26,458 bases of DNA, from positions 1 through 26,458 of the IMG/VR virus record IMGVR_UViG_3300030118_005374, one strand, 5' to 3'. This document shows positions 1,311 through 26,060 of this stretch, piece after piece. How positions within the stretch are numbered: the stretch's first letter is position 1; each line of letters begins with the position of its first letter. The DNA comes from a virus. A program made the translations under genes and the position numbers. The notes under the pieces were generated by a model that saw only the letters and a list, made by a program, of their open reading frames with translations, was not told where the DNA came from and did no database searches.

Positions 1311-2107
1311 TTATCTTCCTCTCTTAGCCTTCGAAAGAGCTTCTTGTTCTTTTCGCTTGGCAGAGTAGTATTTATTAAGCTCCTCTTCACATACTTTTAA
1401 AAGCTCAAATACTTCTCTTTTATTAGTAATCTCAAAAATATCTAAGATATCTCCAAGACCACTATAATCCTTACCTAACCAAACGCCATTCATACCGTCC
1501 CAATTATCAGGTAATGCATTCATGACAACTAAAGCCTGTTGTGCTTCAAGAGTAAAAGTAGAGGGGTCCTTAGGAATGTCCTCTTCTTTTGGCTCTACCC
1601 CCATCTGTTCACATATGAGGAAGTATTGTTCTACACTAACACCTCCTCCATGTAAAGCAGTCTGGAGGTAGTCTTTTAGTTTTTTGCGTTGGTCTCGGCT
1701 TTCTTCTTCGAGAACTGTTCAAAATCATTCATGGTATCTGTAACAAATTGGTCAAACACTGTAGAATTTTTCAAAAGTTCAATTGCATCTTCACTAGAGT
1801 ACTCAATATCGTCCTCACCGTCAATTCCAGAAATGTCAACAGGCATTAAAGCAGGCATATGTTTTACTTTAAGGCCTTTCCATCCAAGAATTGCTTTTTC
1901 AGCATAGTGCTCAAGAAATCGATCATTATCAATTTCCTCTTCACGCTGACGAGTACGCTTATTAAACTTGTAGGTAAGAGATGCGTTACGAATCTTCATC
2001 AAATCCTCACGGGTAAGATATTTAAGATTCAATTCAAATCCATCAATATCTGGGTACTCAACCCAAACTGATGATTTTTCTGCAATTAGATTTTTAATTT
2101 TACTCAT
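1311..2107 (-). CDS. gpGT-like tail assembly chaperone made by -1 frameshift
   Basis: Translation from 2107 reaches the heptamer A AAA AAC (1685 to 1679) in frame 0, directly before the TAA that ends gpG. A -1 slip there re-reads the C at 1679 and continues as LKDYLQTALHGGGVSVEQYF, then through MGVEPKEEDIPKDP to the stop at 1311. The fusion is 265 residues: 143 from frame 0 and 122 from frame -1. This reproduces the lambda G/GT arrangement, in which a minority frameshift product binds both the tape measure and the tube subunit during tail assembly. The ATG at 1604 has no convincing Shine-Dalgarno, so the downstream frame is best read as the T extension and not as a separate gene. The site, frame and position before the tape measure are seen directly; the frameshift frequency is unknown. 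Confidence 0.88.
1676..2107 (-). CDS. gpG-like tail assembly chaperone (unshifted product)
   Basis: This 143-residue protein begins MSKIKNLIAEKSSVWVEYPD and contains FELNLKYLTREDLMKIRNAS, the kind of short beta segment plus helix seen in gpG-type chaperones that follow the major tail protein. It is acidic toward the C terminus and ends A-K-N at the slippery site. The start at 2107 has GAGGGG five bases upstream. That Shine-Dalgarno is part of a set of complementary segments in the leader (see 2111-2226), so its accessibility may be controlled. Function is inferred from position between tail tube and tape measure and from the frameshift signal; sequence resemblance alone is modest. Confidence 0.8.
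   Translation of the reverse strand: MSKIKNLIAEKSSVWVEYPDIDGFELNLKYLTREDLMKIRNASLTYKFNKRTRQREEEIDNDRFLEHYAEKAILGWKGLKVKHMPALMPVDISGIDGEDDIEYSSEDAIELLKNSTVFDQFVTDTMNDFEQFSKKKAETNAKN
1679..1685 (-). promoter_or_regulatory. Programmed -1 ribosomal frameshift site (A AAA AAC)
   Basis: On the minus strand the frame-0 codons read GCA AAA AAC TAA, a perfect X XXY YYZ heptamer directly before the gpG stop. Downstream, CCTCCA and TGGAGG can form a 6-bp stem with a 12-base loop (an alternative pairing uses ACCTCC with GGAGGT), beginning about 10 bases past the heptamer. That is a usual place for a stimulatory structure. Confidence 0.88.
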
Positions 2108-2110
2108 GGT

Positions 2111-2226
2111 TTCCCCTCATAAAGAACGAGTGCTCACCACATATCTGCTTACAAGGGTGAGGGGGAGCCCTGTATCGCAAGTGGTGAACACTCTGCTGGT
2201 AGTTAGTAATTTAATGTTCCCCCTCA
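2111..2226 (-). promoter_or_regulatory. Structured leader of gpG/gpGT with interleaved complementary segments
   Basis: On the transcribed (minus) strand the order is: A, TGAGGGGGA (2226-2218); B, GAGTGTTCACCAC (2193-2181); A', TCCCCCTCA (2166-2158); B', GTGGTGAGCACTC (2140-2128); A2, TGAGGGGAA (2119-2111). A pairs with A' over 9 perfect bp. B pairs with B' over 13 bp with one U-G pair. The order A-B-A'-B' is that of a pseudoknot. A2 contains the gpG Shine-Dalgarno and can pair with A' over 7 bp, so A and A2 compete for A'. There is no U-tract, so a simple terminator is unlikely. A role in controlling gpG/gpGT translation is inference. Confidence 0.6.
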
Positions 2227-2235
2227 GAAACACTA

Positions 2236-3543
2236 TTAAGAAGTTGTCTTCTTAGCAAACATTGTCATTTCGCCACCGTCTCCCTTAGAGGCAGTAGGCT
2301 CCTGACCGACAAAGTTAACAGACATTGAAATAATATCTTCTGTTGCAATCTGCGGGAATTCAAACTGACAAGCGTCAAGCTGGAATGCCACAAACGGAGC
2401 AGTCGTGCCACCAATGATAAGGTTAGCGTTAGAAGTTTGTGCAGAGTTGGTCCTAGAGTCCTCAGAAATATTGCGAAGGAATCCAGCCGACTCAAGGTCA
2501 CCAGTACGAAGATACATAGTAGCTGATCCTGTGACCGCACGAGTTCCAGTAAACTGACCAATCGGCTCATTAAGAGCTGACAGTTCTTCTGGAGTTAAGT
2601 ATGTAATATTATTGTTATAGTCGAAGCTTAATGCCGTAACTGGGAAAGTAAACTTCTCATCGGATGCACCAGCGGAAGCTTTGTGGTGAAACTCAATTGC
2701 GCTAAGACGGTTTTTAATGAACGAGTTAGTGGCAAGAGAACCTGCGACGTTCATCTGATTATAAGGATGGTAAGATCCAACTACAGACAATGCAGCTGCA
2801 TTTGAGTTAGCCACAATCGCAGCTCCACCAGCGTTTTTAATTCCACCAAACGCTGAAATAGCTACGTCGCGTGCACTACCTGTAATCTCTTTAAGAGTTG
2901 TACCGAATCCGGCCCAGGTCGTAGTTGCAATTTCTTCAATACCGGCATCAACAGTTGCCTGATTAACAGTTGCGTTAGATACTTGATACACAACGTTATC
3001 AAGTTTAAAGTAAATGTGATTTTCAGGTGCAGTTGAGAAGTTAGAGCGAGTAGAGTGCGAACCTGTACCCTTTGCTACAGTTGTAGTTCTCAGCTTTCCT
3101 GACCTATTTGCTCCAGTTCCATCACCTGCTTCCCAAACAGACTGCTCACCCGTGGTGCCAGTTGCAGGTGCAGTATTTGAAACCATCGACTGCCACATAA
3201 ACCAGTCAGCGACTGGTTTCACATTACCTGAGGCGTTGGTTCCTGTACCAGTTCCAAGAGCAGTTGCCCCTACCTCTGCACCAGTTGGGCGAAGATAGGT
3301 TTGGAAGTTCCAATCAACAGGGTTAATAGCAGTGTTAAAGCGCTGCTGTGAACGATCTGGTGATGTACCAGATTCAAGTGAAGTGATATCCTGTGTAGCT
3401 GCGGATGACGTGACAGCAAATCCAGCTAACACTTCAAGTTTCCACGTGTTAGAAGGAGTGATTGCAGTAAGAGCAGCACCGTTAATAATATCAACGGTCG
3501 AGAAGAACACCTCGGAATTTCTCTGTAAGTTAAGAGACGCCAT
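2236..3543 (-). CDS. Major tail protein (tail tube subunit)
   Basis: 435 residues beginning MASLNLQRNSEVFFSTVDII. It is rich in Thr, Ser, Ala, Gly and Asn with alternating beta-strand patterns. An N-terminal segment ends NPVDWNFQTYLRPTG, and the C terminus reads FEFPQIATEDIISMSVNFVG, both typical of phage tube subunits that stack in rings around the tape measure. It is longer than many tube proteins (150-250 residues), so the middle probably holds an added surface domain. It lies between the tail terminator and gpG, the classic siphovirus order. The start has AAGGAG 8 bases upstream. Fold and position support the call; no single diagnostic motif exists. Confidence 0.75.
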   Translation of the reverse strand: MASLNLQRNSEVFFSTVDIINGAALTAITPSNTWKLEVLAGFAVTSSAATQDITSLESGTSPDRSQQRFNTAINPVDWNFQTYLRPTGAEVGATALGTGTGTNASGNVKPVADWFMWQSMVSNTAPATGTTGEQSVWEAGDGTGANRSGKLRTTTVAKGTGSHSTRSNFSTAPENHIYFKLDNVVYQVSNATVNQATVDAGIEEIATTTWAGFGTTLKEITGSARDVAISAFGGIKNAGGAAIVANSNAAALSVVGSYHPYNQMNVAGSLATNSFIKNRLSAIEFHHKASAGASDEKFTFPVTALSFDYNNNITYLTPEELSALNEPIGQFTGTRAVTGSATMYLRTGDLESAGFLRNISEDSRTNSAQTSNANLIIGGTTAPFVAFQLDACQFEFPQIATEDIISMSVNFVGQEPTASKGDGGEMTMFAKKTTS

Positions 3544-3555
3544 AATTTTTTCTCC

Positions 3556-4014
3556 TTAGTTTTCAAGCCTATAGGCTATTTGTAGTATTACCTCAGCAAG
3601 TCCATATGGTTCCACAAGTCCCTCATCTACGGTGATGCTGTCTATGATTATATCCTGCACACCTTTATCGGGGTTGTCTCCAAGTGAATAGATGACGTGC
3701 TCAATGTCCTGAATTAGATCATCTGCGAGGCTTTGGGAATTATCTTCTCCATAAACGTATGCTCTTATAGTAACGTCTAAAGTTGCTACCGTCAAACTTA
3801 AAGATTCAAAATCTCGAATTTCGGTACCAGCCGCTAGATAAATCGCTGGAAAATCATTTACCTCGTCTAAAAACTTAACTCCGCGAAAGACGTTATTAAA
3901 AAGATTAGTGTTATAGGTGTAGGAACTATCAAAAGATGATGTGCCCCCATTAATCTTTTTCAATTCTGGGATTAAAACATTATCAACAATCTCTGATCTT
4001 CTGTTAGTTGTCAT
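3556..4014 (-). CDS. Tail terminator-like protein (gpU position)
   Basis: 152 residues beginning MTTNRRSEIVDNVLIPELKK, with KFLDEVNDFPAIYL, a beta-strand run LTVATLDVTIRAYVYG, and a C-terminal VDEGLVEPYGLAEVILQI. This alpha/beta layout and the place just before the tail tube gene match tail-completion or terminator proteins, which cap the tube and join it to the neck. The ATG overlaps the stop of the preceding neck gene as ATGA, so translation is probably coupled. A clear paralogue sits 16 kb away at 20002-20406. The functional assignment is inferred from context. Confidence 0.65.
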   Translation of the reverse strand: MTTNRRSEIVDNVLIPELKKINGGTSSFDSSYTYNTNLFNNVFRGVKFLDEVNDFPAIYLAAGTEIRDFESLSLTVATLDVTIRAYVYGEDNSQSLADDLIQDIEHVIYSLGDNPDKGVQDIIIDSITVDEGLVEPYGLAEVILQIAYRLEN

Positions 4015-7113: not shown

Positions 7114-8493
7114 TTAGCCAGCTTCAACAGTTACAGCGTAAGAGTACTTAGTAGCGTCCAGAGCTGCACTTGAGTTAGTGGTCAGTGCCTTGAAGTCAAT
7201 ACGAGTTGACATATACATTGCAGTGACCTGCTGGCGTGGTTCGTACTCGCTCTCGATCTCGATACCGCGACGTTCGGCAATCATAAATCCAGGCTTGTAG
7301 ACCAGGACACCCAGATCGTTATTAGAAGAACCAACGTTGTCCAGGAACTCAGAGATAGCAATCGGAATACCGTAAACGGCACCAACTGAACCTGTGAGAT
7401 AGGTTGCGTTCGGTCCAAACTTATCAACAGTCTGGAAGTCAGAGGTTGTTACAAGGTTATTATAACCTTCGATTGATGTGATGTACACAAGATCGTTACC
7501 AAGCTGGAGGCCATACTTGCCAAGCTTTGTACGAGCAGCTGCGATATCAGTCGGATCAGCTTTATCGTTGGCTCCACCAGTATCGACGGTCAGACCTGCA
7601 CCTACGTCACCAGTCAGGTTAGTAATACCTTCGATAACGGATGCATAACCAGTGCCAGCTACAATAGAGTTAGTTGGCGATGCAGTAAAGCCAGTCAGTG
7701 CGCCAGTACCACGAAGGATTGACTTATCAATCGCACGGGCCAAACGGCGAGTAGCAGCGGCACGCAGGAAGTCGATAAGCGGAAGCACAGTGTCTTCTTC
7801 TTCATCTTTGGCGAGGTGAGTTGCAGCCATGAACTTATGTGGAGTGAAGTCCACTGAGCTGATGGTGTTCTGGTTTGAGGCCGGTACGCGAGTTGCATCT
7901 GCGATGCCGGTAGCAAAAGTGCCAGAAGCAAACATTGCTACATCACCATCGGTATCCTCATCTGCGACTGGTACGCGGAAGTTTCTAGCATCCACAGCTA
8001 CACGCTCAAACATTGGAGCGACTACAAGCTGCTGTTCCATTTCGGTATAGATGTTAGATGAGAAGTTGCTAAGGAACTGATCAACAGTTGTGATAGCTTT
8101 CATCTTCGCACCAAGCTTGGTATCGAAAACGTCACGCTTGTTCATCATCTTAGCGAGCATTACGGCGTTAGCCTGCTCTTTTTCAGTGAACTGAGCTTGA
8201 TTGCGGCTCTGCTCCTGATAGTGCATTTTGGTCTGCTGAAGGGCAGCAATCTGGTCCTGGTATTGGGCCATTTGTGCCTTAAGAGCAGCTAACTCATCGC
8301 TCTCGCGAGGAGTGTAATCGGATTTTTCTTGAGCGTCTGACTCTTTGATGATAGCTTCACCGGTCTTTTCAACCAGTTCTGCAACTTGAGGCTCAGACAC
8401 TTGAACTGCCGGAGCAGCTTCTTTTTTGACTTCGACTTCTGCTTCTTTAGCAACGTTGTCGATATCAATCGTATCTACGACTTGTTCAGCCAT
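7114..8493 (-). CDS. Possible internal-start product: scaffold delta domain plus capsid
   Basis: An in-frame ATG at 8493 (MAEQVVDTIDIDNVAKEAEV, codon 436 of the fusion) is preceded by AAGGAG with 9 bases of spacing, as good as any dedicated start in the window. Translation from here gives 459 residues: an acidic lead, a coiled coil, and the whole capsid domain, without the protease. This would supply the excess of capsid subunits over protease that assembly needs. The signal is seen directly; use of the start is inferred. Confidence 0.6.
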   Translation of the reverse strand: MAEQVVDTIDIDNVAKEAEVEVKKEAAPAVQVSEPQVAELVEKTGEAIIKESDAQEKSDYTPRESDELAALKAQMAQYQDQIAALQQTKMHYQEQSRNQAQFTEKEQANAVMLAKMMNKRDVFDTKLGAKMKAITTVDQFLSNFSSNIYTEMEQQLVVAPMFERVAVDARNFRVPVADEDTDGDVAMFASGTFATGIADATRVPASNQNTISSVDFTPHKFMAATHLAKDEEEDTVLPLIDFLRAAATRRLARAIDKSILRGTGALTGFTASPTNSIVAGTGYASVIEGITNLTGDVGAGLTVDTGGANDKADPTDIAAARTKLGKYGLQLGNDLVYITSIEGYNNLVTTSDFQTVDKFGPNATYLTGSVGAVYGIPIAISEFLDNVGSSNNDLGVLVYKPGFMIAERRGIEIESEYEPRQQVTAMYMSTRIDFKALTTNSSAALDATKYSYAVTVEAG

Positions 8494-9798
8494 TGTTTCA
8501 TTCTCCTTATCAGAATTATTGTGAAGCTCTTTAGTCAGACTTTCGTTAGAAACCTCGTCTTCACTAGTGTGTGATTTTGTTTCAGATTGTGAGGAAAGTT
8601 CATCTGCGTTCACATTAAGAACATTATCACAATCTTTACCTTGAGCGTCAATCTCTAAAAACTTAAAGATTGGTGATTGGGCGGTTGCTATTTTAGTTAC
8701 CCTATACATTTTTTCATTGAAATTTACTAAATCTCCATGCTGAAGTGATTCTGGATCAGCTGACAGTAAGTTTACCATAGGAATCGACTCATTAGGATCA
8801 CGAGCTTCAAACTCTTCCTCAAAGTCATCTTCTTTTTCAACTTCTTCCATAACCTCTTCAGATGATTCAGCCTTCTCTTCTACGACTTCCTCAGATTTTT
8901 CTTCGACCTCTACTTCAGCCTCTTCTTTAATTACGACTTCCATTTCAGTTTCAGCTTTCTCCTCGATAGCCTCAGAAGTTTCAGTTTTGTCATTGGACAT
9001 TGCTTCCTCCTCTGTTGGAGATAAGGGACGTTCAGAAACTGACTCCTCACTCTCCATGTTATGAATAGGTACACCCATCATAGTAATATCATGAGTATGA
9101 CCTTCAGCTTCCATCACAATACCATTTACAACTTTATGAGCATGGTTGGACATATGAGATGCGTAAGTAGTAACCCCAGTTCCGTTATTATCCATTTCAA
9201 CGGTATGGTAATGTCCTTCATTTACGTTTGTGATACCAGCCTTGATACTACGCATCATTTTTACTTCATCCTCTGAGGCAGGCTCAAAAGATTTTTTGAA
9301 TTCTTCGAAATCTGTGTCAGACTCAAAGCTTTTTCTGATTGAGAAAAGCGAGTCTTGGTTACACGGGACTGAAACAACAGAAATTTCCATAAGCTCAACA
9401 TCAGTGATCATCATGCTGTCGTCTTCTCTATTGTATTTTCCGTCTTTAACCCTAAAACCAACAGAAAAGCTTTTTAAAGCACCGTCTCTGATTAAGGTTT
9501 GAATACCCTGATTTCTTTCAGCGGCTTCAGAAACTGCGGCTTCAACAAAGATTCCTTTTTTATCTACTGTGATCTTATCCACTCGCCCGATTGGGGCATC
9601 ATGTTTATGTTGATAAAGTAACACAGGATTGCGACGATAATTTTCAACACCCTTTGCCCAAGCTTGAGCAGTAACTACGTCACCCGCCCTGTCTTTTGTA
9701 GTAGTGTTGGCATATCCTGCAATTTTTAATGATTTGGAACCTTTTTTGACAGCCTTTGTCTCAAAAGAGCTGTTTAAATATAAAGTTTTATCCTTCAT
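7114..9798 (-). CDS. Fused prohead protease, scaffold and major capsid protein
   Basis: One open frame of 894 residues. Residues 1-165 are an S78 (HK97 gp4) prohead protease: IAGYANTTTKDRAGDVV, YQHKHDAPIGRVD with His64, LKSFSVGF with Ser110 or Ser112, and MEISVVSVPCN. Residues 205-260 form a His-rich unit (NEGHYHTVEMDNNG, MSNHAHKVV, EGHTHDI). Residues 267-360 are Glu/Lys-rich. About residues 365-410 form a small beta domain (HGDLVNFNEKMYRVTKI). Residues 500-550 are a coiled coil typical of a delta or scaffold domain. From about residue 572 follows an HK97-fold capsid subunit (VDQFLSNFSSNIYTEMEQQL, SSVDFTPHKFMAATHLAKDE, RRLARAIDKSILRG, YGIPIAISEFLD). The start at 9798 overlaps the portal stop and has GAGGAA upstream; an alternative start farther upstream lies wholly inside the portal gene. 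Two internal starts may release shorter forms. Confidence 0.85.
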   Translation of the reverse strand: MKDKTLYLNSSFETKAVKKGSKSLKIAGYANTTTKDRAGDVVTAQAWAKGVENYRRNPVLLYQHKHDAPIGRVDKITVDKKGIFVEAAVSEAAERNQGIQTLIRDGALKSFSVGFRVKDGKYNREDDSMMITDVELMEISVVSVPCNQDSLFSIRKSFESDTDFEEFKKSFEPASEDEVKMMRSIKAGITNVNEGHYHTVEMDNNGTGVTTYASHMSNHAHKVVNGIVMEAEGHTHDITMMGVPIHNMESEESVSERPLSPTEEEAMSNDKTETSEAIEEKAETEMEVVIKEEAEVEVEEKSEEVVEEKAESSEEVMEEVEKEDDFEEEFEARDPNESIPMVNLLSADPESLQHGDLVNFNEKMYRVTKIATAQSPIFKFLEIDAQGKDCDNVLNVNADELSSQSETKSHTSEDEVSNESLTKELHNNSDKENETMAEQVVDTIDIDNVAKEAEVEVKKEAAPAVQVSEPQVAELVEKTGEAIIKESDAQEKSDYTPRESDELAALKAQMAQYQDQIAALQQTKMHYQEQSRNQAQFTEKEQANAVMLAKMMNKRDVFDTKLGAKMKAITTVDQFLSNFSSNIYTEMEQQLVVAPMFERVAVDARNFRVPVADEDTDGDVAMFASGTFATGIADATRVPASNQNTISSVDFTPHKFMAATHLAKDEEEDTVLPLIDFLRAAATRRLARAIDKSILRGTGALTGFTASPTNSIVAGTGYASVIEGITNLTGDVGAGLTVDTGGANDKADPTDIAAARTKLGKYGLQLGNDLVYITSIEGYNNLVTTSDFQTVDKFGPNATYLTGSVGAVYGIPIAISEFLDNVGSSNNDLGVLVYKPGFMIAERRGIEIESEYEPRQQVTAMYMSTRIDFKALTTNSSAALDATKYSYAVTVEAG
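8503..8508 (-). promoter_or_regulatory. Internal ribosome-binding site before the capsid part
   Basis: AAGGAG on the minus strand, 9 bases before the in-frame ATG at 8493, inside the fused protease-capsid frame. Confidence 0.6.
9006..9011 (-). promoter_or_regulatory. Internal ribosome-binding site before a possible scaffold start
   Basis: AGGAGG on the minus strand, 5 bases before an in-frame ATG at 9000 (codon 267, MSNDKTETSEAIEEKAETEM). A product from here would start just after the protease and His-rich units, like the nested scaffold of lambda C/Nu3. The codons here encode a Glu run (EEEAM), so GAGGAGG may partly reflect amino-acid content; hence the lower confidence. Confidence 0.45.
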
Positions 9799-11068
9799 TA
9801 TTGGTTTCCTCTGTGTTAGGGTCAGTAGACTCAGCCTCAGCAGGTCTACCCCCTTGAGTAGCATCTGTTGCACTACCCGTAATGTTTTGTGGTACTCTTA
9901 TAGTATCATTATTCTCTAATTTTGGAAATCTTAATCCTTCACGAGCTTCATTTGGGGTGATAATTCCAGTGTTTACCAGAGTGGAATAGTATACGGCCTG
10001 AGTTCTATTATCTGGTTGTAGTGCTGGTACGCTTAATCTGTCTGGCCTGATATTAACACCATTATTAAAGAAATGCGCAAATGCAGAACAGAATTGGTTA
10101 AGAATAGGAATAATTGTGTGAAGATAGAATAATTTTTGGTTAGCATCGATATTAGCATTGTTGCCTGACTTAAGAAGCACATAAGGAACTCCAATAGCCT
10201 TCGCCATATCTTGCTGAATTCGTTCAATGGAATCTTCAAAATCTAATTGATCAAAGTTGATAGTAGAAAACGGATCAATTTTCAGTCCTCCATCTAAAAT
10301 AGCAGGGTTTCTTGCTCCATCAAAAATAGTAGAATAAGTTGACCTCCACGACTCTAATAATCTTTGCTTGACCCTTTGAGATAAAATATTATCTGTGGTT
10401 AGGACAAAACCTGGAAGAGCGTTATTCTTAAAAAACTGTCTTTGGAACTTAATCATGTAGAAGTAAAGTTCCATCAATTTAAGAATCGGCTTCAGTTTAG
10501 AAGTTCCACGGAAGATTGAGTTTTCGTTCTCAGCCATAACATGAATAATCTCATGGGGCTCAAACTGAATAGACTCTGATTTTCTTGTTTGTTTACTACT
10601 TCCTATACCATAAAAGTCTTGAGACTGTTGATTTGATATTAAGTAGTTGTAGTGGCTTACAAAGGTGCGAGCATCGGGAACTACCTCAACATCATTTGCA
10701 GGTAAAAGGTATAAGTCACTACCATCGTAATAAAAGAATGCGTTTCCATCCAGCATAAAGTCTAAAAAAGCTCTTCTAAATAGTCTTGACTTGTCCTCAA
10801 ATGGGTTAGGTCTAACATTTAGGAGTTTGTTAACTTTTTTAGAAGGAGACGCGCCTTCAACAATAAGTGGAACCTCATTACAGGCGTTGATAATCATTTC
10901 AACAGAGCGGTGAACAACTTCGATTTCTCGGTAAGCTTGTTCAAAATCAACAATTGTTTCAGGAGATGCATAAGGTTCTAAAGACGCAATAGACGGCTGA
11001 GCAGGATTCAACTTAAGACGATCGGCTGCCCACCTTCTAAAACCTTTTAATTCTTCATACTCCGCCAT
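9788..11068 (-). CDS. Portal protein (HK97 gp3 type)
   Basis: 426 residues. Key stretches are VVHRSVEMIINACNEVPLIV, LLNVRPNPFEDKSRLFRRAF, LDGNAFFYYDGSDLYLLPAN, the EIIHVMAENENSIFRGTSKL motif, and IERIQQDMAKAIGVPYVLLK followed by NANIDANQKLFYLHTIIPIL. All are characteristic of HK97-family portals, the dodecameric vertex through which DNA is packaged. The C-terminal 30 residues are a polar Asn/Thr/Glu tail. The length is normal. The ATG overlaps the HNH stop by 14 bases, and the stop overlaps the protease start. Confidence 0.92.
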   Translation of the reverse strand: MAEYEELKGFRRWAADRLKLNPAQPSIASLEPYASPETIVDFEQAYREIEVVHRSVEMIINACNEVPLIVEGASPSKKVNKLLNVRPNPFEDKSRLFRRAFLDFMLDGNAFFYYDGSDLYLLPANDVEVVPDARTFVSHYNYLISNQQSQDFYGIGSSKQTRKSESIQFEPHEIIHVMAENENSIFRGTSKLKPILKLMELYFYMIKFQRQFFKNNALPGFVLTTDNILSQRVKQRLLESWRSTYSTIFDGARNPAILDGGLKIDPFSTINFDQLDFEDSIERIQQDMAKAIGVPYVLLKSGNNANIDANQKLFYLHTIIPILNQFCSAFAHFFNNGVNIRPDRLSVPALQPDNRTQAVYYSTLVNTGIITPNEAREGLRFPKLENNDTIRVPQNITGSATDATQGGRPAEAESTDPNTEETNNEG

Positions 11069-11435
11069 TTTTTAACCTTTGAATATCTAACCAGTTCTTA
11101 ATTTTCGGTGTTAGATGATTTGAATACGTTTGCCCATAAATTGTATGTAGCTGTTTATGATGCTTAGAACATAAAGTAAATAAATTGTCGTGAGAAAGTT
11201 CTTCGGCACAATCCTCTGAAAATTTAACTCTATAATCGGTTATTTCTTCAACCGTGTCAATAGAATAAATTTTATTGTCTGAACACCACTGTCTAAAAAG
11301 CTCACTTACGCTGAACAGGTGGTGAAGTTCGAGTTTCTCAGACGATCCACAGATAAAACATTTGTCTCTAAGCTTGTAATCCTTCTTAATAAAGTCTCTG
11401 ATGTACTTTATTGGGAATCTTTTCAACTCTCTCAT
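11055..11435 (-). CDS. HNH endonuclease
   Basis: 126 residues. Cys26-Phe-Ile-Cys29 and Cys89-Ser-Lys-His-His form a probable zinc site. The HNH signature is Leu-His38-His39-Leu, then Asn84 in SHDNLFTLC, and His92/His93 with His97 downstream. HNH proteins next to terminase and portal genes are common, and in HK97-like phages one assists terminase cleavage at cos. Homing is the alternative. The region is AT-rich (35 percent GC in a sampled 60-base line), like the neighbouring glycosyltransferase, so both may have come in together. The stop lies 14 bases inside the portal gene. Confidence 0.8.
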   Translation of the reverse strand: MRELKRFPIKYIRDFIKKDYKLRDKCFICGSSEKLELHHLFSVSELFRQWCSDNKIYSIDTVEEITDYRVKFSEDCAEELSHDNLFTLCSKHHKQLHTIYGQTYSNHLTPKIKNWLDIQRLKNGGV

Positions 11436-14528: not shown

Positions 14529-15461
14529 TTATGTTTTAATTATATAGTTTACCACACTAGTTGGCAAGGTCGTTGTTAAAGCAGGTACGCTTAGTGCTGG
14601 GATCGACAGAGCCGGTATACTCAATGCAGGTATTGAAAGTCCTGGCACAGCGTGACTGTGATCATCAACGGCTAGAGCCGGGATAGTAAGTGCAGGAATT
14701 GAAAGTCCTGGCACACTCAGTGCGGGTACTGATAGTGCAGGAACTGTGAGAGCCGGAATTGAGTGAGTATGTGCAGCGTTAGATACACTAGTGACAGCAC
14801 TAGCTGTGGATGAGTCTTTAGCGGATGATGCAAATGTACCAGTTCCTACTGAAAGAGAATTAGTTGTCGATCCTGTAGTTCCAGTGCCGGTATTACCTGT
14901 GCCAGTGTTACCAGTTCCGGTATTTGCTGTGCCTGTTGTACCAGTTCCAGTATTAGCAGCAGTAGTTTCAACCCCAGAGGAATTTCCAGTGTTCGCGGTG
15001 CCAGTAGTACCAGTACCAGTATTGCCTGTTCCCGTGTTTCCAGTTCCAGTGTTAGAGGTAGCATTTGTAATGACAGAGGAAGCTGCAGCTGAACCTGTTT
15101 CAGTGCCGAGAGTATCGTTATTAGATCCTTTACCTAAAGGAACTCTGTCTTGCAAATCAGGAAGACCAAAAGTGCCTGATCCATCTCCTGTTCCGAAGGC
15201 TGTACCGATTACTGCAAATAGTCGTGCGTAGGTAGTCCTTGAGACGTTAGAGCCATCACACAAAAGGAAGTTACCTGGTACAGTTGCTCCGCCAAATGGA
15301 AGAATAGTACCAGAAGGAATAATTTCAAAGCCTCCAGCTTGAGAACCGTCATGCACTCGAATGTTGTCAGTGTTAGTATCAATAGATATTTCACCGACGA
15401 CACCAGTGAATGCATTGTTTTGTGCTGTTGTGCCCCTTCTAAATTGTAATTGAGTAGGCAT
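14529..15461 (-). CDS. Tail-collar-domain fibre with two repeat tracts
   Basis: 310 residues. Residues 1-40 (MPTQLQFRRGTTAQNNAFTG, then a VGEISIDTNTDNIRVHDGS strand pattern) are the usual N-terminal attachment repeat of phage fibres. Residues 48-112 are a tail-collar domain (PSGTILPFGGATVPGNFLLC, FGLPDLQDRVPLGKG). Residues 137-197 are built from NTGTG and TTGTA units. After AAHTHS, residues 235-295 are built from the five-residue unit (I/V)PALS, interrupted once by DDHSHAV. Such collar-plus-repeat proteins form receptor-binding or short tail fibres. AAGGAG precedes the ATG. Repeat number could vary between relatives. Confidence 0.8.
   Translation of the reverse strand: MPTQLQFRRGTTAQNNAFTGVVGEISIDTNTDNIRVHDGSQAGGFEIIPSGTILPFGGATVPGNFLLCDGSNVSRTTYARLFAVIGTAFGTGDGSGTFGLPDLQDRVPLGKGSNNDTLGTETGSAAASSVITNATSNTGTGNTGTGNTGTGTTGTANTGNSSGVETTAANTGTGTTGTANTGTGNTGTGNTGTGTTGSTTNSLSVGTGTFASSAKDSSTASAVTSVSNAAHTHSIPALTVPALSVPALSVPGLSIPALTIPALAVDDHSHAVPGLSIPALSIPALSIPALSVPALTTTLPTSVVNYIIKT
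14577..14759 (-). repeat. In-frame tandem repeats coding for (I/V)PALS units
   Basis: About twelve 15-base units encode Ile/Val-Pro-Ala/Gly-Leu-Ser/Thr in the fibre C terminus, interrupted once by a His-containing spacer (AVDDHSHAV). The codons vary, so the units are old enough to have diverged. Confidence 0.75.
14871..15053 (-). repeat. In-frame tandem repeats coding for NTGTG/TTGTA units
   Basis: About twelve units encode Asn/Thr-Thr-Gly-Thr-Gly/Ala in the fibre middle, in two arrays split by NSSGVETTAA. They are likely to expand or contract by slippage or recombination. Confidence 0.75.
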
Positions 15462-19868: not shown

Positions 19869-20005
19869 CATATCCACCCTAATGCATAAGCAATGCCCAT
19901 CTCAACTGTTAAGAGTGCTCCAAGCATGAACACAGCTCCTAACACAGCCATTGGTAAAAATGCATAGTCTTTCAAGCTTCTTTTTCTAGTACAACAACTG
20001 CTCAT
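19868..20005 (-). CDS. 45-residue membrane microprotein
   Basis: A short gene with tight coupling at both ends: ATGA overlap with the tail-terminator paralogue at 20005 and TGATG overlap with the small terminase at 19868. The protein is MSSCCTRKRSLKDYAFLPMA followed by a 25-residue hydrophobic helix ending in YALGWI. A basic head with two cysteines and one membrane span suggests an inner-membrane protein with its N terminus in the cytoplasm. It could be a small holin-like or spanin-like factor, but no family is recognised. Confidence 0.65.
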   Translation of the reverse strand: MSSCCTRKRSLKDYAFLPMAVLGAVFMLGALLTVEMGIAYALGWI

Positions 20006-20406
20006 ATGTCAACCTCGTATGTAATAAGTATCTGCATGTCACCAACTTGATATGGCCTCATCAATCCCTCATCTGACCCAAGAGTCACAACTTGAGCAAT
20101 CTCCACTCCGAGCGCACGTTGTGCGGCAGCGAAAGTGCCCACCTGATCTTCCACCTCTCTCAATCGAAGATCAAGCTCGGCAATGTCACGATCATACTCA
20201 TATAGACGAAGATCAATCTGTAGAGTAGCAAGTTTTCGTCCTGCTCCACGATGATCACGCGTTTCTCCACGCGGCACAAAAGTGATAGACGGAAAATCAT
20301 TAATCTCGTCTAAATACTTGTAACGCTTGAACACTTGTTCAATAGAGTTTAACGCCTCTAAATGTGATCTAAAAGCATCAACAATCTGAGTGCGTCTAGT
20401 AGTCAC
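20002..20406 (-). CDS. Tail-terminator paralogue
   Basis: 134 residues. It shares a scaffold of motifs with the 152-aa protein at 3556-4014: MTT-RR-x-x-IVD at the start, K(F/Y)LDE(V/I)NDFP in the middle, an LATL strand followed by a Tyr-rich strand, and DEGL-x-x-PY near the end. The linkers differ: here RLREVEDQVGTFAAAQRALG replaces the longer loop of the other copy. It is the second gene of the late operon, far from the tail cluster. It could be a second tail-completion protein or an assembly factor. Confidence 0.65.
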   Translation of the reverse strand: MTTRRTQIVDAFRSHLEALNSIEQVFKRYKYLDEINDFPSITFVPRGETRDHRGAGRKLATLQIDLRLYEYDRDIAELDLRLREVEDQVGTFAAAQRALGVEIAQVVTLGSDEGLMRPYQVGDMQILITYEVDI

Positions 20407-23580: not shown

Positions 23581-23611
23581 TTGAAAAATAGGGTTGCAAT
23601 CCCCATATTAT
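23581..23611 (+). promoter_or_regulatory. Repeated early promoter, copy before the first HTH gene
   Basis: CCCC then TTGAAA (23581-23586), 19 bases containing GGGTTGCAATCCCC, then TATTAT (23606-23611) and a TATATAT tract. The HTH gene starts at 23650. The GGGTTGCAATCCC core is nearly self-complementary. Confidence 0.65.
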
Positions 23612-23649
23612 ATATATCACTGAAACGATCAGACACAGGAGAAATGATC

Positions 23650-23955
23650 ATGGCAAAAGCTGTTAACTATACCCCCGAACTCACCGCTTCCATCGTCGAG
23701 CAATATCAGGCTGGCGTCGATGTCGCAGAGATCGCGTCGTCAATCGACAAATCGGTTCGGTCCGTTCGTTCCAAGCTGGTTCGCGAGGGCGTCTATGTCG
23801 CGTCCGCCAAGCCAGCGGCCAAGAAGGTTATGGGTCCGACTAAAAAGGAACTCTTGATCGAACTCGAGGAGATCGCCCCATTCTCGGTCGATGGTTTTAT
23901 GGGGGCCACCAAGGAGGCTATCAATGACCTCATCAAACACCTTCAAGACGCGTAA
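23650..23955 (+). CDS. HTH DNA-binding protein, copy 1
   Basis: 101 residues from the ATG at 23650, which has AGGAG 8 bases upstream. NYTPELTASIVEQYQAGVDV followed by AEIASSIDKSVRSVRSKLVR and EGVYVA is a SANT/helix-turn-helix-like unit in which the SVRSVRSKL helix would read DNA. The C-terminal part (GPTKKELLIELEEIAPFSVD, then GATKEAINDLIKHLQ) is helical and could mediate dimerisation. A clear paralogue sits at 25761-26060. Similar small proteins occur in many marine phages without known function. A regulatory role at the repeated promoters is inference. Confidence 0.75.
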   Translation: MAKAVNYTPELTASIVEQYQAGVDVAEIASSIDKSVRSVRSKLVREGVYVASAKPAAKKVMGPTKKELLIELEEIAPFSVDGFMGATKEAINDLIKHLQDA

Positions 23956-25718: not shown

Positions 25719-25760
25719 CTTTTTATAGAATGAAACGTGAGAGAGAAAGAGAGGCAGAAA

Positions 25761-26060
25761 ATGAAGGCACCAAACTATTCCGCAGAGGCGACTGCGAAGA
25801 TCATCGCTGACTACCAGAACGGCGTGGACGTTGCTGAGATTGCAGCTTCCGTTGAGAAGTCTGTGCGCTCGGTACGCTCGAAGCTGGTGCGTGAAGGGGT
25901 CTACGTTGCTAAGGCTAAGCCCGTAGCTAAGCGTGACTCTGGCCCATCCAAGAAGGAACTCCTCTTGGAGCTTGAGAACGACTTTGGCTTCGATGCCACT
26001 GGTCTTGAGGGGGCAACCAAAGATGCCATCGTGCGCATCATGAAGACCCTCGCGCAGTAA
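25761..26060 (+). CDS. HTH DNA-binding protein, copy 2
   Basis: 99 residues from the ATG at 25761, with GAGAGG upstream; a GTG eight codons earlier is possible. It is a clear paralogue of the protein at 23650-23955: NYSAEATAKIIADYQNGVDV, then AEIAASVEKSVRSVRSKLVR, EGVYVAKAKPVAK, GPSKKELLLELE, and GATKDAI near the end. The DNA-reading helix SVRSVRSKLVREGVYV is identical in the two copies, so they should bind similar sites. The C-terminal half differs more, which could change partners. It is followed by a strong terminator. Confidence 0.75.
   Translation: MKAPNYSAEATAKIIADYQNGVDVAEIAASVEKSVRSVRSKLVREGVYVAKAKPVAKRDSGPSKKELLLELENDFGFDATGLEGATKDAIVRIMKTLAQ

Follow-up and report, generated by a model that had tools for sequence, protein, structure and literature searches.

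Genomic context of the gpG leader

The DNA analysed here (hereafter, the window) is the whole stretch of 26,458 nucleotides at positions 1 to 26,458 of the IMG/VR virus record IMGVR_UViG_3300030118_005374. According to PHROGs, the neighbouring genes encode the tail tube, the gpG and gpT chaperones, the portal, the terminase and the tail terminator. The tail tube (major tail protein) gene lies on the minus strand at 2236..3543 (phrog_3575, E 6.7e-47), and the gene for the tail assembly chaperone gpG lies on the same strand at 1676..2107 (phrog_313, E 1.4e-15). The 128 bases from the tail tube stop to the gpG start are occupied by a folded mRNA element of about 110 bases, directly downstream of the first gene and directly upstream of the second.

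At the other end of gpG, a slippery heptamer A AAA AAC is found at 1685-1679 (minus strand), directly before the stop codon, and a gpT-like ORF (1604..1311, minus strand) follows downstream in a different frame. Because ...KN is the C-terminus of all 22 gpG proteins listed, the usual -1 frameshift that yields gpGT seems to be conserved.

The window has several other features. A 919-aa ORF at 7114-9873 (minus strand) combines an N-terminal part resembling a head maturation protease with a C-terminal part resembling a major head protein, and thus looks like a fused protease-capsid gene. A 134-aa ORF at 20002-20406 (minus strand) seems by eye to be paralogous to the tail terminator (3556-4014, minus strand), both having the ...YLDEINDFPSI/FLDEVNDFPAI... 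region in common. The ORFs at 23581-23955 and 25737-26060 (plus strand) encode near-identical small proteins that share ...GVDVAEIA(S/A)S(I/V)(D/E)KSVRSVRSKLVREGVYVA..., which points to a duplicated gene. A 310-aa tail-fibre-like ORF at 14529-15461 (minus strand) carries GTGNTGTG and SIPALSIPALS repeats, and a small ORF at 11055-11435 (minus strand), just upstream of the portal gene, has the pattern CFICG...LHHLF...CSKHHKQLH, by eye that of an HNH-type endonuclease.

Anatomy of the element

The initial annotation had described a pseudoknot-like leader with two interleaved complementary pairs, and the positions proved to be right. Five segments follow one another on the minus strand, which is also that of the genes, in the order A-B-A'-B'-A2. 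Segment A (TGAGGGGGA = UGAGGGGGA, 2226-2218) begins 9 nt downstream of the tail tube stop and matches A' (TCCCCCTCA = UCCCCCUCA, 2166-2158) perfectly over 9 bp. B (GAGTGTTCACCAC, 2193-2181) pairs with B' (GTGGTGAGCACTC, 2140-2128) over 13 bp including one U-G. The last segment, A2 (TGAGGGGAAAC = UGAGGGGAAAC, 2119-2109), contains the gpG Shine-Dalgarno (SD) sequence GAGGGG (2118-2113) and can form 7 contiguous pairs with A'. In most members A' has A2 as a potential partner besides A.

The fold of the minus strand was better than that of all 200 dinucleotide shuffles (z -3.44), and the plus strand was unremarkable in the same comparison (z -1.38). Just 3' of the tail tube stop lies the hairpin P1, AGUGUUUC-UGAG-GGGGAACAUU (2213..2234, minus strand), whose loop and 3' strand contain A. 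A linker of 17-25 nt leads to P2, the B/B' helix, which has a constant length of 13 or 14 bp. P2b is offset from P2 by a bulge of 4-5 nt that begins A-U/C (AUAU in the window). Its 5' strand UUGC (2177..2180, minus strand) is near invariant in 40 diverse members; its 3' strand GCAG together with the bulge AUAU (2141..2148, minus strand) includes AGCAGA, identical in 34 of 34 rows of alignment A3, with rare variants of strand and bulge in more distant members. P3 is formed by ACAGGG (2168..2173, minus strand), where relatives have compensating pair changes, and CCCUUGU (2151..2157, minus strand), placed by the fold and by pair counts; it encloses A' in its loop. The P2-P2b-P3 arm amounts to about 26 bp, with 7-13 nt between P2 and A2 with its SD. 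Among members, the stop-to-A spacing ranges from 7 to 21 nt and the SD core precedes the gpG start codon by a median of 7 nt. In the nested fold, part of A2 is engaged in other pairs (its mean probability of being unpaired is 0.44).

The location of A inside a conserved hairpin and of A' inside a closed loop within B/B', neither of which figured in the initial annotation, means that A/A' is not part of a simple two-stem H-type pseudoknot, but a loop-loop (kissing) contact or a more complex pseudoknot. From the sequence comparisons described below, the element almost certainly consists of the hairpin P1, the long P2-P2b-P3 arm and the A/A' contact that joins the P3 loop to the P1 region. A short coding ORF in the leader was also considered and rejected, since members do not share the ATG that precedes A2.

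Distribution of the element

Aiming to find relatives, we searched IMG/VR with the gpG protein and retained the best 80 loci, all relatives being the best 80 per scan and coming from metagenomes. The set was then widened by pattern searches and by more distant gpG and tail tube protein queries. In total, more than 85 distinct leader sequences were compared, from phages whose gpG identity reaches as low as about 48-55%. Wherever the upstream region was available among the loci found through gpG, the leader was present, with visibly compensating changes. A covariance model recognized the element in 67 of 67 loci selected by gpG or pattern, some of which had served to train it, and in 54 of 55 loci selected by the tail tube; the contig of the 55th stops at the tail tube stop, so that all 54 tail-tube-selected loci with sequence past the stop have the element. 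In 30 whole records, the longest of 112 kb, there was a single copy each, in the same place before gpG. No second copy in the same record was found with the covariance model in these records or in the tail-tube-selected loci, the weak second matches on the minus strand being the self-complementary element itself. With the same architecture in every relative that has sequence past the tail tube stop, we regard the observation as settled.

The phages carrying the element are uncultured T5-like viruses, distant kin of the cultured T5-like Demerecviridae, with gpG, terminase and tail tube all below 60% identity to them. Four whole records of cultured T5-like phages gave no significant match to the model, only a single chance-level one (E = 0.6) away from gpG. 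In these four phages (L324, L325, L326 and L327), tail tube and gpG are separated by a gene of about 0.9 kb, whose end coincides with the gpG start or lies no more than 8 bases from it. The group of the window lacks this gene here and has the RNA element in the gap instead.

A blastn search of the leader against 50,697 phage records returned no match. The pattern matched three times in 84,980 prokaryote genomes; none of the three scored with the covariance model, and the one inspected lay in a bacterial gene context, so we take all three as chance. Using Rfam (release 15), we found no family at or above the gathering threshold in the window and none at E <= 1 in nine relatives. Our literature searches likewise turned up no leader RNA upstream of gpG, in agreement with the initial annotation, which knew of no such element. 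The shape of the leader is kept while its letters change across the whole uncultured T5-like group, and it matches no known RNA family.

Covariation supports the helices

Since an alignment made with the covariance model leans towards the structure of the model, we based the main test of covariation on an alignment in which nothing but the P2 3' strand was fixed. Pairs were assessed with a tree-aware test of our own design (R-scape-like in idea, but not R-scape), in which columns are simulated independently along a gpG tree and scored by an APC-corrected G statistic. In separate pair counts over 65 distinct rows, 95.5% of the cells were paired, as against 42-46% for slid partners, and there were 221 two-sided changes, as against 72 in shuffles.

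The strongest signal came from P2. With 34 sequences, the top four of 8,128 column pairs were all in this helix; with 40 sequences (8,256 pairs), it again led, with six pairs at E < 0.05. Overall, 98.9% of P2 cells were paired, and two-sided changes occurred at 10 of its 14 pairs. Read from the other strand, the G-U pairs of P2 would become A-C, which identifies the coding strand as the functional one. In the 40-sequence test the P1 pair 7/22, changing from G-C to A-U, reached E = 0.001; one pair outside the model, 89/104, reached E = 0.028. In P3, A-U is replaced by G-C in five rows, including the window, and G-C by A-U in L270.

For the 10-pair A/A' helix, 96% of the cells are standard pairs, and its edges change in step (alignment columns 19/79: GC 43, AU 15, GU 5). 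Its core of 6-7 pairs is almost invariant, so the statistical support rests on the flanking pairs and on one deep lineage. None of the A/A' pairs was significant alone in the tree-aware test, and the claim is carried by two other observations. First, in a swap test the strands of A/A', like those of P2 and P1, prefer their own partner over swapped ones (p < 5e-5; these values are optimistic because the sequences are related, but one-per-clade sets agree). Second, a compensating change in the core, with A = UGAGGGA and A' = UCCCUCA, marks the lineage that lies deepest, which two separate contigs (L359/L406 and L407) represent. At the same base as this change in A, the P1 pair 11/18 goes from C-G to U-A, and the lineage also has a C-G to U-A double change in P2b (64/94); in L359, the P3 pair 72/85 goes from G-C to A-U. 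The initial annotation had proposed compensatory changes in relatives as the check on its pairs, and those in B/B' and A/A' uphold an interleaved RNA, be it a pseudoknot or a kissing contact. Judged by these comparisons, the leader is a genuine and new cis-acting structured RNA, carried in the late mRNA of uncultured T5-like siphophages.

Alternative pairings and possible mechanism

To build its tail, a phage needs fixed proportions of tail tube, gpG and gpGT. Much is known about the frameshift inside gpG; far less has been described of the control of how much gpG synthesis is started; a covarying pseudoknotted leader across a divergent group, with gpG down to about 48% identity, offers a defined and testable element for such control. 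The element most likely sets the expression of the tail chaperones gpG and gpGT relative to the tail tube, and a cis-acting RNA of this kind is, with moderate confidence, the explanation that best fits the whole of the evidence. It ends 7-13 nt upstream of the SD. Because it abuts the gpG ribosome-binding region, and because the proportions of the products of the partner genes matter (gpG:gpGT is 30:1 in lambda (PMC5009743)), we consider post-transcriptional action on gpG fairly probable.

How the element would act is suggested by bases with two partners. Columns 18-21 of alignment A3 pair with columns 8-11 (upper P1) in 38-40 of 40 members, and also with columns 74-77 of A' in 30-40 of the 37-40 members with letters there. 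Upper P1 and the full A/A' helix share these bases and are thus mutually exclusive, forming a conserved pair of alternatives that is better supported than A'/A2. The mechanism that we think most likely, and put forward tentatively, starts from this exclusion. With P1 closed, A' would be free and could lower access to the SD in the members with GAGGG(G). P1 could be opened by a ribosome terminating at the tail tube stop, for example, or by a bound protein; A would then capture A', the SD would be left open and gpG would be translated, coupling chaperone synthesis at long range to tail tube synthesis. The 5' strand of P1 would start no further than about 10 nt from the stop in 29 of 34 members, as calculated from the spacings, so a terminating ribosome could cover it there but not in the five members in which it lies further away. 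The range of stop-to-A spacings indicates that tight coupling is not required. In its strongest form, P1 and A/A' would define a new class of kissing-loop RNA switch, whereby translation of the upstream tail tube gene or tail proteins decide the amount of tail chaperone; we regard this strong form as doubtful.

About equally plausible as P1 opening, by our assessment, is the binding of a protein to the near-invariant core. Here a protein of the phage or its host (gpG, the tail tube protein or a ribosomal protein) would bind the core made of P2b, the bulge and the kissing contact, and repress or activate gpG. The near-invariant core beside a freely covarying P2, as well as the constant length of P2, suggests a fixed three-dimensional binding surface, and T4 gene 32 provides a phage precedent (PMC3014915); the binding protein is hypothetical, which leaves a protein operator a tentative reading too.

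Somewhat less probable is the switch proposed by the initial annotation, a conserved two-state device in which A/A' frees the gpG SD and A'/A2 hides it. The layout of SD, anti-SD and anti-anti-SD is indeed present. Most members have an unusual gpG SD, GAGGG(G), where other genes of these phages use AAGGAG-like sites, and it pairs with A' far better than the other SDs do, averaging -13.3 versus -5.4 kcal/mol (kissing energies were approximated by simple duplexes). However, A2/A' had no two-sided change, with 76.6% of cells paired, and in the swap test A2 showed no preference for its own A' over those of other phages (p = 0.94-0.996 for "better" pairing). Hardly any complementarity is left in L359 (-2.8 kcal/mol), and it is weak in L262, L267, L344 and L393, so an SD-masking step cannot be universal. 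Given an arm of about 26 bp and a link of 7-13 nt, A2 would reach the P3 loop only if the arm bent sharply or partly opened. SD masking may thus occur in many members, although by these comparisons it is not what the whole family conserves. From the initial interpretation, then, the interleaved RNA outside any described family stands, now with covariation behind it; a two-state SD switch in exactly the form proposed is possible, but as a conserved feature it is unsupported.

Preferring P1 opening or a bound protein, we weighed three further readings of the same anatomy. The arm could be an RNase III-type site or a stability barrier that separates tail tube from chaperone messages. The fold and pair counts do give the long imperfect helix expected of such a site, between genes with very different product needs; this would leave the A/A' covariation, P1 and the near-invariant P2b and bulge unexplained, and we find it improbable. 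An undescribed class of metabolite riboswitch or self-cleaving ribozyme would account for the conserved core, the covarying helices, the loop-loop contact and the lack of a known family, but is still less probable: the element has one gene context in all records, unlike metabolite riboswitches, and was not seen to recur before several genes of one pathway, always preceding gpG; a layout like that of the HDV ribozyme does not fit, as the conserved helices P3 and P2b enclose A', and no Rfam ribozyme matched. A transcription attenuator or antitermination signal within the late operon is very unlikely, for although the intergenic hairpin is strong, a U tract directly after it, as in an intrinsic terminator, is not conserved (at least 5 U after P2 in 7 of 34 members), and the hairpin in the window is not called as a terminator.

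Comparison with known systems

Translational riboswitches have expression platforms built from SD, anti-SD and anti-anti-SD segments. The gpG leader shares with them conserved helices with near-invariant core nucleotides, an A segment that resembles the SD, an anti-SD-like A' and the possibility of alternative pairings. It differs from them in that its anti-SD/SD pairing is neither covarying nor universal, as well as in its single gene context, in a ligand that is only hypothetical and in its lack of an Rfam match. T7-type late-gene intergenic hairpins are RNase III processing sites, and the leader is likewise a long interrupted hairpin between late genes; its conserved loop-loop pairing and near-invariant core would be unexpected in a plain processing site. 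The -1 frameshift control of lambda concerns the same genes (PMC5009743), and the window has a slippery A AAA AAC at its gpG end; that control acts at the gpG end, on the gpG:gpGT ratio, whereas the leader would act, if at all, before gpG.

The nearest system is the T4-type gene 32 leader, an mRNA pseudoknot upstream of the ribosome-binding site that is conserved among related phages and that serves as an autogenous translational operator acted on by gp32 (PMC3014915). The gpG leader similarly has pseudoknot or loop-loop pairing upstream of the ribosome-binding site with comparative support. Compared with gene 32, the leader is bigger, comprising a kissing contact and three hairpin arms, lies between late genes before a tail chaperone, has no sequence relation in Rfam scans, and has a binder that is only hypothetical. 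In a 2010 review, the T4 gene 32 pseudoknot was described as perhaps still the sole viral pseudoknot involved in autoregulating translation (PMC3014915), which makes a second phage candidate useful.
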